A stretch of DNA of 64,000 nucleotides from a virus. Under the pieces are notes generated by a model. The model did no database searches. It was not told the origin of the DNA and saw only the letters and a list, made by a program, of their open reading frames with translations. The stretch covers positions 87,661-151,660 of the IMG/VR virus record IMGVR_UViG_3300032087_002150; one strand, given 5' to 3'. Below are positions 56,605 to 61,374 of this stretch, piece by piece. The translations under genes were made by a program, and so were the position numbers. Position 1 is the first letter of the stretch, and every line of letters starts with the position of its first letter.

Positions 56605-57108
56605 ATGCCAAGAACTTATAAAGGCAAATACACTGTAAAACATCGTAGCAAGTATAAGGGCAACCCCGAGGAGGTCGTGTACAGATCTCATTGGGAAAAA
56701 TCTGTTATGCAGTGGTTGGACAACAACTCAGAAGTTGCGCAGTGGAACAGCGAAGATTTTATCATCCCATACTATTACGATGTGGACAAGAAGTGGCATA
56801 AATACCACATGGACTTCTGGATTAAGTTTAAGAGTGGGAACGTATTACTTGTAGAAGTGAAACCAAAAAAGCAAACTCAACCGCCGAAGTCAAAGAATCC
56901 TCGCTCCAAACGCTCTCTCAACGAAGCATTCACCTACATCAAAAATCGTAACAAGTGGGAGGCAGCGCAACAGATCGCTTTGGATAATGGTTACAAGTTT
57001 GCGATATGGACTGAAGATGAGTTGACCAAAATGAAGATACTCAACAAAACTCCTGGCAAACTAAAGAAACTAAAACCTCTCGCTCCATTTAAGAAAAAGA
57101 AGAATTAG
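56605..57108 (+). CDS. gp4: gp4 head completion protein
   Basis: 167 residues, one of only two plus-strand genes. EEVVYRSHWEKSVMQWLDNN, WNSEDFIIPYYYDVDKKWHK, YHMDFWIKFKSGNVLLVEVK and PKKQTQPPKSKN match the T4 gp4/gp50 head completion protein, a TnsA/endonuclease-like fold with a D-x(n)-E-V-K core (D94-type region). It works on packaged heads before tail joining. The basic C-terminus PGKLKKLKPLAPFKKKKN may bind DNA. No Shine-Dalgarno is visible. The stop codon overlaps that of the convergent tape-measure-like gene. Confidence 0.88.
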   Translation: MPRTYKGKYTVKHRSKYKGNPEEVVYRSHWEKSVMQWLDNNSEVAQWNSEDFIIPYYYDVDKKWHKYHMDFWIKFKSGNVLLVEVKPKKQTQPPKSKNPRSKRSLNEAFTYIKNRNKWEAAQQIALDNGYKFAIWTEDELTKMKILNKTPGKLKKLKPLAPFKKKKN

Positions 57109-59249
57109 ATTCTCCTTCCTCTATATGCTCCACGATGAGTTCTATCGCTCTTATCAGTTGGAGAAGGCATTGGACCAGCATTAATATTATTGTTGGTGAC
57201 ACTGTTACTTGTGTTACTTGGAGCATTAACAAGGGTTGCTGCTGCTTGCGCCGCATCTTCTTTTGCTCTTGCTGCCTTTTCGGTTTCCATACTTAAAACA
57301 TTGTCGCGAGCGATTGCCTCACCGCCACCAACATCATCGCCGAATCCAAAGAAACCTTTTACCTTGCCGAGCAGATTTGTAGCATCTTCTTTTAACTCGT
57401 CTGTTGCTGGCGCAAAGAAGTTATTGATTTTTTCTGCGATACTTTTTTCGTTTTCCCTGAGGAAGTCTTTCACTTGAGTTGGAGTGGCACCTGCATCAAT
57501 CATACGGCGAACCTTACCCATTACGATAGGACCAACCTCAAACTCTTCAAGGGAGTCCTCTAGTTCCTTGAACTCGTCAGTGGCAAGGTTATCAATCGAT
57601 TTATAGGTATCGAAACGCACCTTACCCTTACCTGTCATGTCATCGAATGAGGCGGTAACTCCTGTTTGAGTGGTAATATTTTCTGTTTGTCCAAGTTCGT
57701 TTACAACTTGTTGGTCCACGCTCTCTTTTGCATATGAGAATATGCTATCGTCCTCAATACCAGAAGCATTATCCGCAAATGTTTTCTGATAGTCATCTCC
57801 AGAAGATTCAGTAGTCACCGAAGTTTTACCTGCAAGCTGGGTAGTGCCTTCGTCAGGACGGAAAGGATAGAACGGACCAAACCCAACTGGACCGATAAAC
57901 GGAACATCAAACTCTACACGAGGAATACCTATCTCGGCGAACATATTCGTTAAAGTTTGTTGTATACCAGAAAAGTTAAACAGTCCAGCAAACCAATCTT
58001 TTAGAGAGCGGAGACCTTCTATCATCGGGTCCATCCACCAACTGTTTATTGACGCGATCTCGTCAATTAACGGATCAAACGCATTCATCGTACCGAACTC
58101 GAACGCACCTCCTTCTTCAGTTGGCATTTCACCCGTTGCTCTAGGAGCAGGTCCATCGCCAATAACCAATCCCCTCTTGCCAGTTTCTGGATTAACTTTA
58201 GTTGGAGCAGCAGGTGCGCTACCAATTACGCGACCACGCTTGCCAGGAACCTTTTGAGTTTGAGCATCTTGCTCTGCTCTAGATTCCTCATTTGCCATCG
58301 CAATTGCTTGACGCGGAGTGAAACCAAGGTCGGTAAATTTCTCTACTTGTTCTTTTGTCACTCCTTCATCGGCAATGTCAGGGTTGTCGCTTCTTTCAGG
58401 AACGTCACTTTCTAGGTCTTCAGGACCACCACGTTTGGCATCAGGAGGTGCTTCTGGTTCCTCGTCATCATCACCGCCGAACCAATTTAACGGATTAAGA
58501 TATTTTATCGCGTTCGATGCCCATTCTGTTAAACCATCCCAAAACTCTGAAAGAGCATTTTTCATACCATCAAGTGCTTCTGAGAAAGAGAATTCTGGGA
58601 AGAACTTTTTAATTGCTAGGAATGCTACTCCGATCGCAGCAGCAATGGCAAGTATAGGCAGGAGGATAGGAGCAAGAGCAGCAACTATTGGCGCCAGCAT
58701 GGCCATGAGAGCACTAAACATAGCAGTGATAGCAGGGACCACTGTTGTCATCACGAATCCAGCAACAGCACTTATCCCAGAGAATAACATACTACCCAAA
58801 GACAGCATACCAGTTTTTAGCAAACCAAGAACTTTAACAGTCTTACCTGCCCACATACCTGCTGTGTTAGTGAAGTCCTCTATTGCGGAAAAGATGCCTC
58901 CGAATAGATCTTCTTCTTGACCTTTCAAGAAACCAGATTTAAATTCTGTTTTTAATTTTTCAGTTCTTGATGGTTTGTCGTCACCGTCACCACCATCTTT
59001 CTCATCGCGACCTTTTAGTTTTTCGCGAGTGTCAGCATCTTTTTTCTCTTTTTCGTAGATACTCTTATCAGCATTGATTAGGTCAGCAAATCCTTGCGTC
59101 AACGCAGCGGGAACGGTGTTCATGAACGTGAGTAATACCTCTGACAACTGACTCAGATTATCGTTGATCTCAAAATTAGATTCTAAAGTAAGTTCTGAAA
59201 AAGTGTTCAGTTCTTTTAGTTCTGCTACGACTGACTCTAAAGATGCCAT
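57105..59249 (-). CDS. Tape-measure-like tail protein (714 aa)
   Basis: 714 residues. Helical N-terminus (SLESVVAELKELNTFSELTL), a charged segment (65-110), then a long hydrophobic, Ala-rich region (about 138-214, e.g. LGLLKTGMLSLGSMLFSGIS, AMLAPIVAALAPILLPIL) with two to three membrane-type helices, a disordered Pro/Glu part and a helical C-terminus. This layout and its place directly after gp26 and its frameshift ORF fit a tape measure, the T4 gp29 role. No T4 gp29 similarity is obvious. At about 1.5 Angstrom per residue it would measure a tail of T4-like length. Confidence 0.6.
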   Translation of the reverse strand: MASLESVVAELKELNTFSELTLESNFEINDNLSQLSEVLLTFMNTVPAALTQGFADLINADKSIYEKEKKDADTREKLKGRDEKDGGDGDDKPSRTEKLKTEFKSGFLKGQEEDLFGGIFSAIEDFTNTAGMWAGKTVKVLGLLKTGMLSLGSMLFSGISAVAGFVMTTVVPAITAMFSALMAMLAPIVAALAPILLPILAIAAAIGVAFLAIKKFFPEFSFSEALDGMKNALSEFWDGLTEWASNAIKYLNPLNWFGGDDDEEPEAPPDAKRGGPEDLESDVPERSDNPDIADEGVTKEQVEKFTDLGFTPRQAIAMANEESRAEQDAQTQKVPGKRGRVIGSAPAAPTKVNPETGKRGLVIGDGPAPRATGEMPTEEGGAFEFGTMNAFDPLIDEIASINSWWMDPMIEGLRSLKDWFAGLFNFSGIQQTLTNMFAEIGIPRVEFDVPFIGPVGFGPFYPFRPDEGTTQLAGKTSVTTESSGDDYQKTFADNASGIEDDSIFSYAKESVDQQVVNELGQTENITTQTGVTASFDDMTGKGKVRFDTYKSIDNLATDEFKELEDSLEEFEVGPIVMGKVRRMIDAGATPTQVKDFLRENEKSIAEKINNFFAPATDELKEDATNLLGKVKGFFGFGDDVGGGEAIARDNVLSMETEKAARAKEDAAQAAATLVNAPSNTSNSVTNNNINAGPMPSPTDKSDRTHRGAYRGRRI

Positions 59250-59286: not shown

Positions 59287-59481
59287 TCACATCCTCGCGA
59301 GTTTTCTCTGCTCTGCTTTTTCGTTTTGTTCTTTGATGTACTCAGTGAGGAGGGTTATGTAGATCTCCCTCTCCCAAGGTAACATATGCTCTAGTTCAGT
59401 TAGCGAATAATTATGATGTTGCATCAGAGCGAAGTTGGTCTTATAATGGTTTATAAGACTGTCATGAGAGAGGGTAATCAG
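59287..59481 (-). CDS. gp51-like ORF expressed by -1 frameshift from gp26
   Basis: A 64-codon open frame with no start codon near its 5' end (a TGA lies just before the slippery site and the first ATG is at codon 20). The product reads LITLSHDSLINHYKTNFALM then QHHNYSLTELEHMLPWEREI and ends in a charged helix EYIKEQNEKAEQRKLARM. The HNYS-TE-E-M-PWEREIY pattern is that of a conserved tail-assembly protein encoded after gp26 in marine T4-like phages. It is -1 relative to gp26 and begins at the slippery heptamer, giving a fusion of 303 residues. In analogy to lambda gpG/gpGT it would be a tape-measure chaperone extension. Confidence 0.75.
   Translation of the reverse strand: MITLSHDSLINHYKTNFALMQHHNYSLTELEHMLPWEREIYITLLTEYIKEQNEKAEQRKLARM
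59438..59459 (-). promoter_or_regulatory. Perfect hairpin downstream of the slippery site
   Basis: Arms GTCTTATAA and TTATAAGAC (9 bp) with a 4-nt loop, starting 21 nt after the slippery heptamer. A possible frameshift stimulator, although the spacing is longer than usual. Confidence 0.5.
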
Positions 59482-60197
59482 AAAAAATCAGTCAACCCTT
59501 TTAGTTCTAGTTCGTTCTCTGCGCCGCACTTAATACAATTAAACTGGGCAAGGTGAGTAAGTGCTGGAACATTCTGTAAGAATTCAGTAATTTTTTCCAA
59601 CTGACTCGCTGTCATAGATTGTATAAACTCTACGATCTCAGACATTTCTTGCGATTCACAATCAATCCTTTCTTCTTCGGTAATAACAGCAGCAATAGAT
59701 CTGGCGATAACTTCTAAGGCAGCGTTGACGTCCTTTTCAGCATTTTGGACATCACCTTCCATGAGAGACCCATAAGAAGGATATTGCATTTCTACTGAAA
59801 TATGATCAGTGATAGGTATGATATTATTGCCTTTGGGAACGTCAATATGCAATTGTTCGAGATTGATGACATACTCGTTTCTCATCTTGCATTTTTCTTC
59901 TTTACAGGTCATGATGATTGTTGAGGTTTCGCCTACTGACTTTGATCTAAGTTGCGTGAACATGTACTCGATATCAAATGTAGCGAGTTTGTTCATATCA
60001 ACATTTTCTGACGGGTCTAGGCAAGAAACAATCGTATCGGTCATTGCTTCAAGGCAAGTCTGTGGATCTTGAGACTCAAATGCCTGAAGTAAGATTTTTT
60101 CTTCTTTGACGAGGTAGGGTCTGTATTTAACTCGACGCCCTGTGGAGGGAATCTCCATAGTAAAATTCAGCGTCTCATTAACGCGTGGTAATGCCAT
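59478..60197 (-). CDS. gp26: gp26 baseplate hub / tail assembly protein
   Basis: 239 residues from MALPRVNETLNFTMEIPSTG (GGAG at correct spacing; a TTG four codons upstream is unlikely). RPYLVKEEKILLQAFESQDP, QTCLEAMTDTIVSCLDPSEN, FDIEYMFTQLRSKSVGE and two Cys pairs (CKEEKCKM; CIKCGAEN) identify the T4 gp26 (T4 baseplate) family. The Cys pairs likely bind zinc. The last codons GAT TTT TTC TGA contain the -1 slippery heptamer. It precedes the tape-measure-like gene, as tail chaperones do. Confidence 0.9.
   Translation of the reverse strand: MALPRVNETLNFTMEIPSTGRRVKYRPYLVKEEKILLQAFESQDPQTCLEAMTDTIVSCLDPSENVDMNKLATFDIEYMFTQLRSKSVGETSTIIMTCKEEKCKMRNEYVINLEQLHIDVPKGNNIIPITDHISVEMQYPSYGSLMEGDVQNAEKDVNAALEVIARSIAAVITEEERIDCESQEMSEIVEFIQSMTASQLEKITEFLQNVPALTHLAQFNCIKCGAENELELKGLTDFF
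59481..59487 (-). promoter_or_regulatory. gp26: -1 ribosomal frameshift slippery heptamer T TTT TTC
   Basis: In the gp26 frame the heptamer reads T-TTT-TTC directly before the TGA stop. It fits the X-XXY-YYZ rule for simultaneous -1 slippage. A Shine-Dalgarno-like AAAAGGG lies 8 nt upstream, as in dnaX, and a perfect 9-bp hairpin lies downstream. Confidence 0.75.
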
Positions 60198-60223: not shown

Positions 60224-60772
60224 TTATTGAACCTCAAGTTGACTATATTGTAAGGTGACAGTCAATTCACCCACAGCACCAACTGCTTGATTGTTTAACT
60301 CAATTTCGTTAATACTTAACGGGAAACAATTTAGGATCTTTGCCGAGTAGATATCATTTCCCTGCCTATCTTGTTGCTTCACAGTAATCGGATGAACATA
60401 ATTGTCATAAAATCCAGCAGTATATGGCGCAGTAGGATTAATACAAAGATCCATCCATCCTTGAAAGTATTTTCTTGCGCTATACGTGTGCGTCAAATAA
60501 AATGTCATGGACAATACATCGACGTTATACCCAGAGGCAACCTTTATAGGTTCCATCCCAAGTTGTCGGTCCAAGGTGTTTAATGATTTCCCTGGGATTC
60601 TCACTGCTGTGCACAATTCGCTGAGTGATGTGGCGAGAGCAGCAACATCTACTGCTTCTCCACCAGGAGTAGAACCAGAAATTGGGGGCATCTCAACCAT
60701 CCACCTATTGGTGTATGCTGGTCCTTGTTCTGCTTCAAATCTTCCTCTAAGAGTATCTGTACTAAAACTCAT
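60224..60772 (-). CDS. Tail-tube-fold baseplate protein (gp54 candidate)
   Basis: 182 residues. FEAEQGPAYTNRWMVEMPPI, ELCTAVRIPGKSLNTLDRQL, YNVDVLSMTFYLTHTYSARK, YDNYVHPITVKQQDRQGNDI and LTVTLQYSQLEV is a tube-type barrel related to gp19. Located beside gp26, it may be the tube initiator (gp54 role), although T4 gp54 is longer. The start overlaps the upstream stop (TAATG). Confidence 0.7.
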   Translation of the reverse strand: MSFSTDTLRGRFEAEQGPAYTNRWMVEMPPISGSTPGGEAVDVAALATSLSELCTAVRIPGKSLNTLDRQLGMEPIKVASGYNVDVLSMTFYLTHTYSARKYFQGWMDLCINPTAPYTAGFYDNYVHPITVKQQDRQGNDIYSAKILNCFPLSINEIELNNQAVGAVGELTVTLQYSQLEVQ

Positions 60773-61374
60773 TATCGTTTCCTGGCAATCTCTCTACTGT
60801 CTTTAAACACTCTTCCTTCACCTGCTTTTCGCCAAGAGGCGAGCGGTAGATGTACAGCAACTTCCCATTCAGGGGCAGGAACATTTGCTATCCTGCCATA
60901 AATCTGATCATATCTATATCTTTTTATACACGCTTTGTGTGCGCGCAATTGAGTTCTGGATTTCAAATAATCATAATCTATCTTCAGATATGTATTCCAT
61001 CTAAACTCAGTATTACTTGCTCTTGACAGTAGATTGTAGAACAACCTTTGTCTCAGGTCTATCGGAAGGTAATGAAGATTCAATCCAGTGAATCCTTCCT
61101 TTTGCCTGCTTATCATGATAACAAGGGGGAATCTATCATAGTATGGTAGTTCCTGTTTCCCAACAGGGTTATATCTAAACAAATACATTCTACCAATAAA
61201 TTGATTCGCCGCCATTTTTATAGGAGGATTCCTAATAATACTCTGGCGATCTACTGGTAGTTTGTTTATCTCCCTGATTCTGTCGTAAAACCATTCCTGA
61301 GAAAGTTTAGTATTGGACTCAATACCTTCTTCCTCGAGAAGATCCTTATATTTTTCGAACAGGTTTTCATCCAT
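60772..61374 (-). CDS. Conserved tail-assembly-region protein (200 aa)
   Basis: 200 residues. IGRMYLFRYNPVGKQELPYY, DRFPLVIMISRQKEGFTGLN, LHYLPIDLRQRLFYNLL, HKACIKRYRYDQIYGRIA and EWEVAVHLPLASWRKA make a pattern seen in many marine T4-like phages beside baseplate genes. I recognise the family but cannot name its T4 counterpart with confidence. It is probably structural or for assembly. The promoter TATAAATA is 6 nt before the ATG. Confidence 0.7.
   Translation of the reverse strand: MDENLFEKYKDLLEEEGIESNTKLSQEWFYDRIREINKLPVDRQSIIRNPPIKMAANQFIGRMYLFRYNPVGKQELPYYDRFPLVIMISRQKEGFTGLNLHYLPIDLRQRLFYNLLSRASNTEFRWNTYLKIDYDYLKSRTQLRAHKACIKRYRYDQIYGRIANVPAPEWEVAVHLPLASWRKAGEGRVFKDSREIARKR

Follow-up and report, generated by a model that had tools for sequence, protein, structure and literature searches.

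The gp26-like gene in a 64,000-nt stretch of DNA from a marine T4-like phage (IMG/VR record IMGVR_UViG_3300032087_002150, positions 87,661 to 151,660; referred to below as the window) very probably gives rise to two proteins through a programmed -1 ribosomal frameshift at the heptamer T TTT TTC, as judged from the reading frames and their conservation in related phages. Most ribosomes would terminate at the TGA that follows the heptamer and release the 239-aa gp26 product, the short form of a presumed tail assembly chaperone. A fraction of the ribosomes would instead shift back by one base at U UUU UUC and read on through a gp51-type domain of 64 residues, yielding a long chaperone of approximately 303 aa. 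Two elements probably promote slippage, namely an SD-like AGGG approximately 8-10 nt upstream and a structure in the downstream RNA with an outer stem that would begin 6 nt beyond the heptamer. If the two forms act like gpG and gpGT of phage lambda, the short form would be expected to coat the tape measure protein encoded by the next gene, and the extra domain of the long form to recruit tail-tube subunits. The features discussed here are the following:

57105..59249, minus strand: tape-measure-like protein (714 aa), next gene downstream
59287..59487, minus strand: extension in the -1 frame (66 codons counted from the heptamer, and the stop), putatively the gp51-type domain at the C-terminus of the long form
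59367..59376, minus strand: 3' arm of P1, a predicted long-range stem; this arm lies over the W-E-R-E codons
59438..59459, minus strand: 9-bp hairpin with perfect pairing and a 4-nt loop, enclosed by P1 (arms 59459-59451 with 59446-59438)
59465..59474, minus strand: 5' arm of P1, beginning 6 nt after the heptamer
59478..60197, minus strand: gp26-like gene (zero frame; short form of the presumed chaperone), 239 aa, PF12322 and phrog_150
59481..59487, minus strand: slippery heptamer T TTT TTC, abutting the TGA stop; the gp26 frame divides it as X XXY YYZ
59496..59502, minus strand: SD-like AAAAGGG, candidate upstream stimulator, 8 nt upstream of the heptamer
60224..60772, minus strand: tail-tube-like protein, gene upstream of gp26, phrog_45

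Two overlapping reading frames between the tail tube and tape measure genes

The gp26-like ORF extends from an ATG at position 60197 to a TGA at 59480-59478, and its 3' end reads GAT TTT TTC TGA, which places the heptamer (59487-59481) right before the stop, as the initial annotation had stated. The product matches the Pfam family PF12322 (T4_baseplate; 6e-52, above the cut-off) and phrog_150 (2e-51, profile positions 11-232). In the -1 frame, a TGA abuts the heptamer on its 5' side and is followed by 66 sense codons, FFLITLSHDSLINHYKTNFALMQHHNYSLTELEHMLPWEREIYITLLTEYIKEQNEKAEQRKLARM, with the stop at 59287-59289. The frame had been described as opening at the heptamer and lacking a usable start for 20 codons, and this is correct: the first ATG, GTG or TTG is the ATG within 'FALM' at codon 22 (21 codons in), and no ATG overlaps the gp26 stop in the window. 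Profile matches of the -1 product are to phrog_634, 'baseplate hub assembly catalyst' (3e-26), and to phrog_150 (1e-7), in the latter case at profile positions 231-281. As the gp26 product covers positions 11-232 of the latter, the two frames jointly fill one family profile, and by their profile matches to PF12322, phrog_150 and phrog_634 both frames belong to the T4 gp26/gp51 family.

The product of the gene upstream of gp26 matches the tail tube family phrog_45 (5e-33), with a Pfam gp19 match below the cut-off (0.002). Matches of the 714-aa protein encoded downstream to tape measure families are weak but clear (phrog_58, 4e-9; phrog_305, 3e-7; phrog_28, 3e-7), in agreement with the tape-measure-like appearance noted before. 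The gene order in the window is therefore tail tube, gp26, -1 ORF and tape measure, and several relatives are similar. Two overlapping ORFs between a tail tube and a tape measure gene correspond to the gpG/gpGT type of layout, and the initial annotation, which had drawn this comparison, was right with regard to the organisation. The gene at 60772-61374 on the minus strand, two genes before gp26, encodes a DNA end protector (T4 gp2-like; phrog_429, 8e-44).

In-frame T TTT TTN is found at only 3 sites among 18,691 codons (52 non-overlapping window ORFs of at least 100 aa), and the site at the end of gp26 is the only one located within 3 codons of a stop. Bare TTTTTTC, counted in any frame, is not enriched in the window (17 seen versus 24 expected), and this count was left out of the evidence. 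As the bare heptamer is not rare, it is its position, phase and conservation that carry the signal.

Conservation of the junction and coding nature of the -1 extension

Homologues of the -1 product were found in 807 phage records (tblastn, E up to 10); in 675 of these, the match spans 80% or more of the query. The matches mostly begin at the first residue of the query, upstream of any start. From five viral-contig scans and named phages, we collected 335 junctions that are non-fused and derive from phages outside T4/Tevenvirinae and Ackermannviridae. All 335 carry T TTT TTN at the same place and in the gp26 phase, so that heptamer and frame are conserved in every homologue tested outside these two lineages, and the gp26 stop follows the heptamer within 0-3 codons in 328. 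The groups and hosts represented include Synechococcus, Prochlorococcus, Pelagibacter, Methylophilales, Vibrio (KVP40 type), Aeromonas, Rhizobium, Agrobacterium, Sinorhizobium and Caulobacter. T4 gp51 holds both parts in one frame, and one might therefore suspect that a single gp26-gp51 ORF has lost a base in the window, either through decay of the gene or through a sequencing error. The recurrence of the frame relation and the heptamer in 335 junctions from independent contigs and isolates rules this out, and the junction of a second contig (L266), identical to the window over 126 nt, also argues against it.

The codons of the slip site are more uniform than their protein product would require. 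Among 190 representatives (junctions less than 90% identical to each other), the codon preceding the slip codons ends in T in every case (AGT, GAT, AAT, TCT, GCT or GGT) and TTT is used without exception as the first Phe codon, whereas elsewhere in gp26 C is the final base in 13-29% of such pyrimidine-ending codons. Codon usage would produce this invariant T plus TTT with a chance of approximately 10^-47 if the sequences were independent; relatives are not independent and the true figure is far less extreme. The pattern indicates a constraint on the slip-site codons beyond the need of the protein. In contrast, the last base of the heptamer is free (C in 188, T in 108, A in 34 and G in 5 of the 335 junctions), as predicted by the X XXY YYZ rule. 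This freedom also bears on transcriptional slippage, in which mRNAs gaining or losing a base within the T run would produce the fusion without any slippage of the ribosome. Runs of 8 T are present in some relatives (L005, L096), which would suit such a process, but the run in the window comprises only 6 T followed by C, which is short for polymerase slippage, and a free base after the sixth T fits re-pairing of tRNAs better than a requirement for run length. We regard transcriptional slippage as highly improbable.

Comparison of nearest neighbours over -1 codons 5-19 gave 305, 222 and 739 changes at codon positions 1, 2 and 3, respectively, with 574 synonymous and 424 nonsynonymous codon changes. 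An ATG is absent before codon 20 in 146 of the 190 homologues and present in 44, and 99 have no ATG, GTG or TTG in this stretch. Taken together, the codon-position test and the survey of start codons indicate that the -1 stretch ahead of the conserved Met codes for protein and lacks a start of its own, as is the case for the extension in the gpG/gpGT arrangement.

These results also bear on the possibility that the -1 ORF is a small gene in its own right (gp51), in which case translation would begin either by termination-reinitiation or at a start within the ORF; the ATG at codon 22 could serve as such a start, as could a near-cognate ATT that overlaps the TGA. Database records mostly annotate the ORF in this way, as a separate 'baseplate hub assembly catalyst', the TGATT of the window could offer an AUU start, and an ATG overlaps the gp26 stop in 14 of the 190 relatives. 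A separate gene would, however, leave unexplained why protein-coding sequence is conserved upstream of Met22, why 99 of the relatives lack a start codon in that stretch and why the heptamer is kept far beyond what the protein needs; in addition, T4 gp51 carries the domain covalently fused to a gp26 body. We therefore consider a separate gene improbable, though less so than transcriptional slippage. Relatives with an ATG overlapping the stop in addition to the heptamer are found among KVP40-like, Cr30, Rhizobium, Agrobacterium and phiM7 phages, and in these phages frameshifting and reinitiation may both operate. The overlap takes the form TAATG or TGATG, with the ATG in the -1 frame (junctions L088-L092, L183, L187, L210, L231, L237, L242, L244, L248 and L254).

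Among the homologues examined, only two lineages lack the heptamer, namely T4/Tevenvirinae, in which the genes are duplicated, and the Ackermannviridae, in which an overlapping ATG is found. None of the three Ackermannviridae examined (phiMAM1, Coodle and ChubbyThor) has the heptamer and two have the overlapping ATG: in Coodle and ChubbyThor, gp26 ends in A ATT TTC ATY TAATG with the ATG in the -1 frame, an arrangement that would favour a separate gene. This is the only group in which the ORF has its own ATG and no heptamer; the minority of other phages with an overlapping ATG retain the heptamer. The TAATG overlap (L095, L101) begins a gp51-type ORF of 49 aa, and in phiMAM1 (L094) the overlap is TGATC, with no obvious start. 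As the heptamer, its phase, the start-less coding extension and the synteny are conserved outside these two explainable lineages, we infer a programmed -1 frameshift at this site, as the initial annotation had proposed.

In many GenBank records, the extension either is missing or appears as a gene of its own, 'baseplate hub assembly catalyst', whose start is arbitrary. For example, two public records annotate it from internal starts (L003, L007; codon 22 and an ATG at codon 6) and a third leaves it unannotated (L006). We suggest that a better description of the extension is that of a C-terminal domain belonging to the long form of a chaperone.

Candidate stimulatory elements

The SD-like AAAAGGG (59502-59496) lies 8 nt upstream of the heptamer, as had been noted. 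SD-like words are present at positions -20 to -5 in 68% of the 190 homologues, compared with 41% +/- 3% expected from synonymous resampling, with a sharp peak starting at -12 to -15. The enriched words are of the type AGGG or GAGG and lie 8-10 nt upstream. The initial annotation had also pointed out a perfect 9-bp hairpin 21 nt downstream. This hairpin is present, but with a usual spacing between slip site and stimulator of 5-9 nt it is too distant to be the whole stimulator, and we found it to be nested in a longer predicted stem, P1, in which 59474-59465 pair with 59376-59367.

RNA folding was evaluated against a null in which synonymous codons were shuffled within each sequence. For the window, the folding z-score is -3.1 when computed locally and -4.8 when P1 is included. 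In the region right after the heptamer, the mean z-score of the 190 representatives is -1.94 for 133 nt and -1.03 for 60 nt, compared with -0.52 to -0.61 for control windows inside gp26, and averaging over clusters gives -1.84 (65 clusters) and -1.39 (16 clusters, p 4e-5). The dominant pairing register joins bases 13-22 with bases 111-120 from the heptamer and retains 7.18 of 10 pairs, versus 6.17 +/- 0.08 expected. P1 exceeds the shuffles on pairing and covariation (0/500), but the covariation score is not decisive alone, as partners slid by -1 to -3 give 0.166-0.178 compared with 0.173 for P1. For this reason, the synonymous null, the cluster-level averages and a test on sister pairs were used instead. 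In the last of these, which covered 155 non-overlapping sister pairs, 27 of 55 double changes at the three wobble-wobble pairs of P1 were compensatory, versus 3-17 of 46-80 in other registers, and close relatives keep 10/10 P1 pairs through a C-G to T-A change. In other lineages (P-SSM2, S-MbCM7), the RNA is predicted to fold instead into a compact hairpin that follows the heptamer by a few nt. RNAalifold gave no consensus structure over 89 diverse sequences, and an Rfam search returned no family. A downstream RNA structure that is not universal is thus likely, and it may act to stimulate slippage. If the stem is real, it would represent a testable frameshift stimulator under strong coding constraint.

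Relation to T4 gp26/gp51 and other tail assembly chaperones

PF12322 matches both T4 gp26 and T4 gp51. T4 gp26 matches phrog_150 only up to position 235 of 282, and T4 gp51 covers positions 13-280 and in addition matches phrog_634; the two T4 proteins are therefore relatives that represent a short form and a long form. The gp26-like product resembles their gp26 part, and in an alignment the C-terminus of T4-type gp51 falls on the -1 product of the window, LSHDSLINHYKTNFALMQHHNYSLTELEHMLPWERE. Unlike in the window, where one gene carries a conserved slip site, the short and long forms of T4 are encoded by two separate genes on opposite strands, and the 3' end of T4 gp26 (GAG TTC TTT GAG TTA CTA TAA) has no slip site.

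The arrangement shares with lambda gpG/gpGT (Xu, Hendrix and Duda 2004; PMC5009743) the gene order before the tape measure gene, the start-less C-terminal extension and a presumed short/long pair. It differs in its poly-T heptamer, the conserved SD-like element and the candidate long-range stem, and its proteins belong to the T4 gp26/gp51 family, sequence similarity to lambda not being part of the likeness. The frameshifted chaperone described for Vandenendeviridae and Andersonviridae likewise has an open -1 frame and, where its short gene ends, a poly-T slip motif (GTTTTT; PMC12846349); these are other phage families with another motif, likened here by motif and frame only. In a Foldseek search of the PDB with the AlphaFold2 model of gp26 (pLDDT 91.6), the top match by probability was the HK97 chaperone 2OB9 (0.85), with an E-value of only 0.41 over approximately 100 columns and a TM-score of 0.25 by query and 0.49 by target. 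A sequence search of the PDB gave no match, and Foldseek with the T4-type long form gave no significant match there. A gpG/gpGT-like role is the best reading of the model match, the gene order and the published T4-like chaperone assignment. Matches to pf16 'gp26/gp51' and to P22 gp26 were rejected, as the gene numbers are unrelated.

According to the initial annotation, such an arrangement is not a textbook feature of the T4 lineage. This holds for a review from 2016, which describes G-T frameshifting as conserved in long-tailed phages 'except T4' (PMC5009743), but not for later work. Vladimirov et al. 2022, as cited in PMC10885494, identified short and long chaperone genes in T4-like phages, some of which, according to the same citing text, have one short and one long fused gene and no frameshifting; PMC12846349 credits the same study with poly-T frameshift signals in T4-like phages. 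Judging from these citing passages, the core principle is probably already published. Among the open papers searched, none described a frameshift at the cyanophage gp26/gp51 junction. The long-range stem enclosing the 9-bp hairpin and the comparison of routes may be the new parts.

The T4 exception appears to be confined to T4 and its near relatives, and large marine and alphaproteobacterial T4-like groups would keep slippage in the same gene family. We propose that the family reaches a short/long pair by slippage, by slippage together with an overlapping restart codon, or by gene duplication, and that the long-range stem, of approximately 10 bp and closing approximately 90 nt after its 5' arm, is a conserved, previously undescribed RNA element setting frameshifting in marine T4-like phages, with a compact local hairpin in its place in other lineages; taken jointly, these proposals seem to us evenly balanced between right and wrong. 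In Rhizobium phage RHph_TM61 (L099, 2890-3790), we also observed a distant gp26-like protein (phrog_150, 4e-8) whose overlapping downstream ORF lies in the +1 and not the -1 frame, possibly representing a +1 frameshift chaperone.
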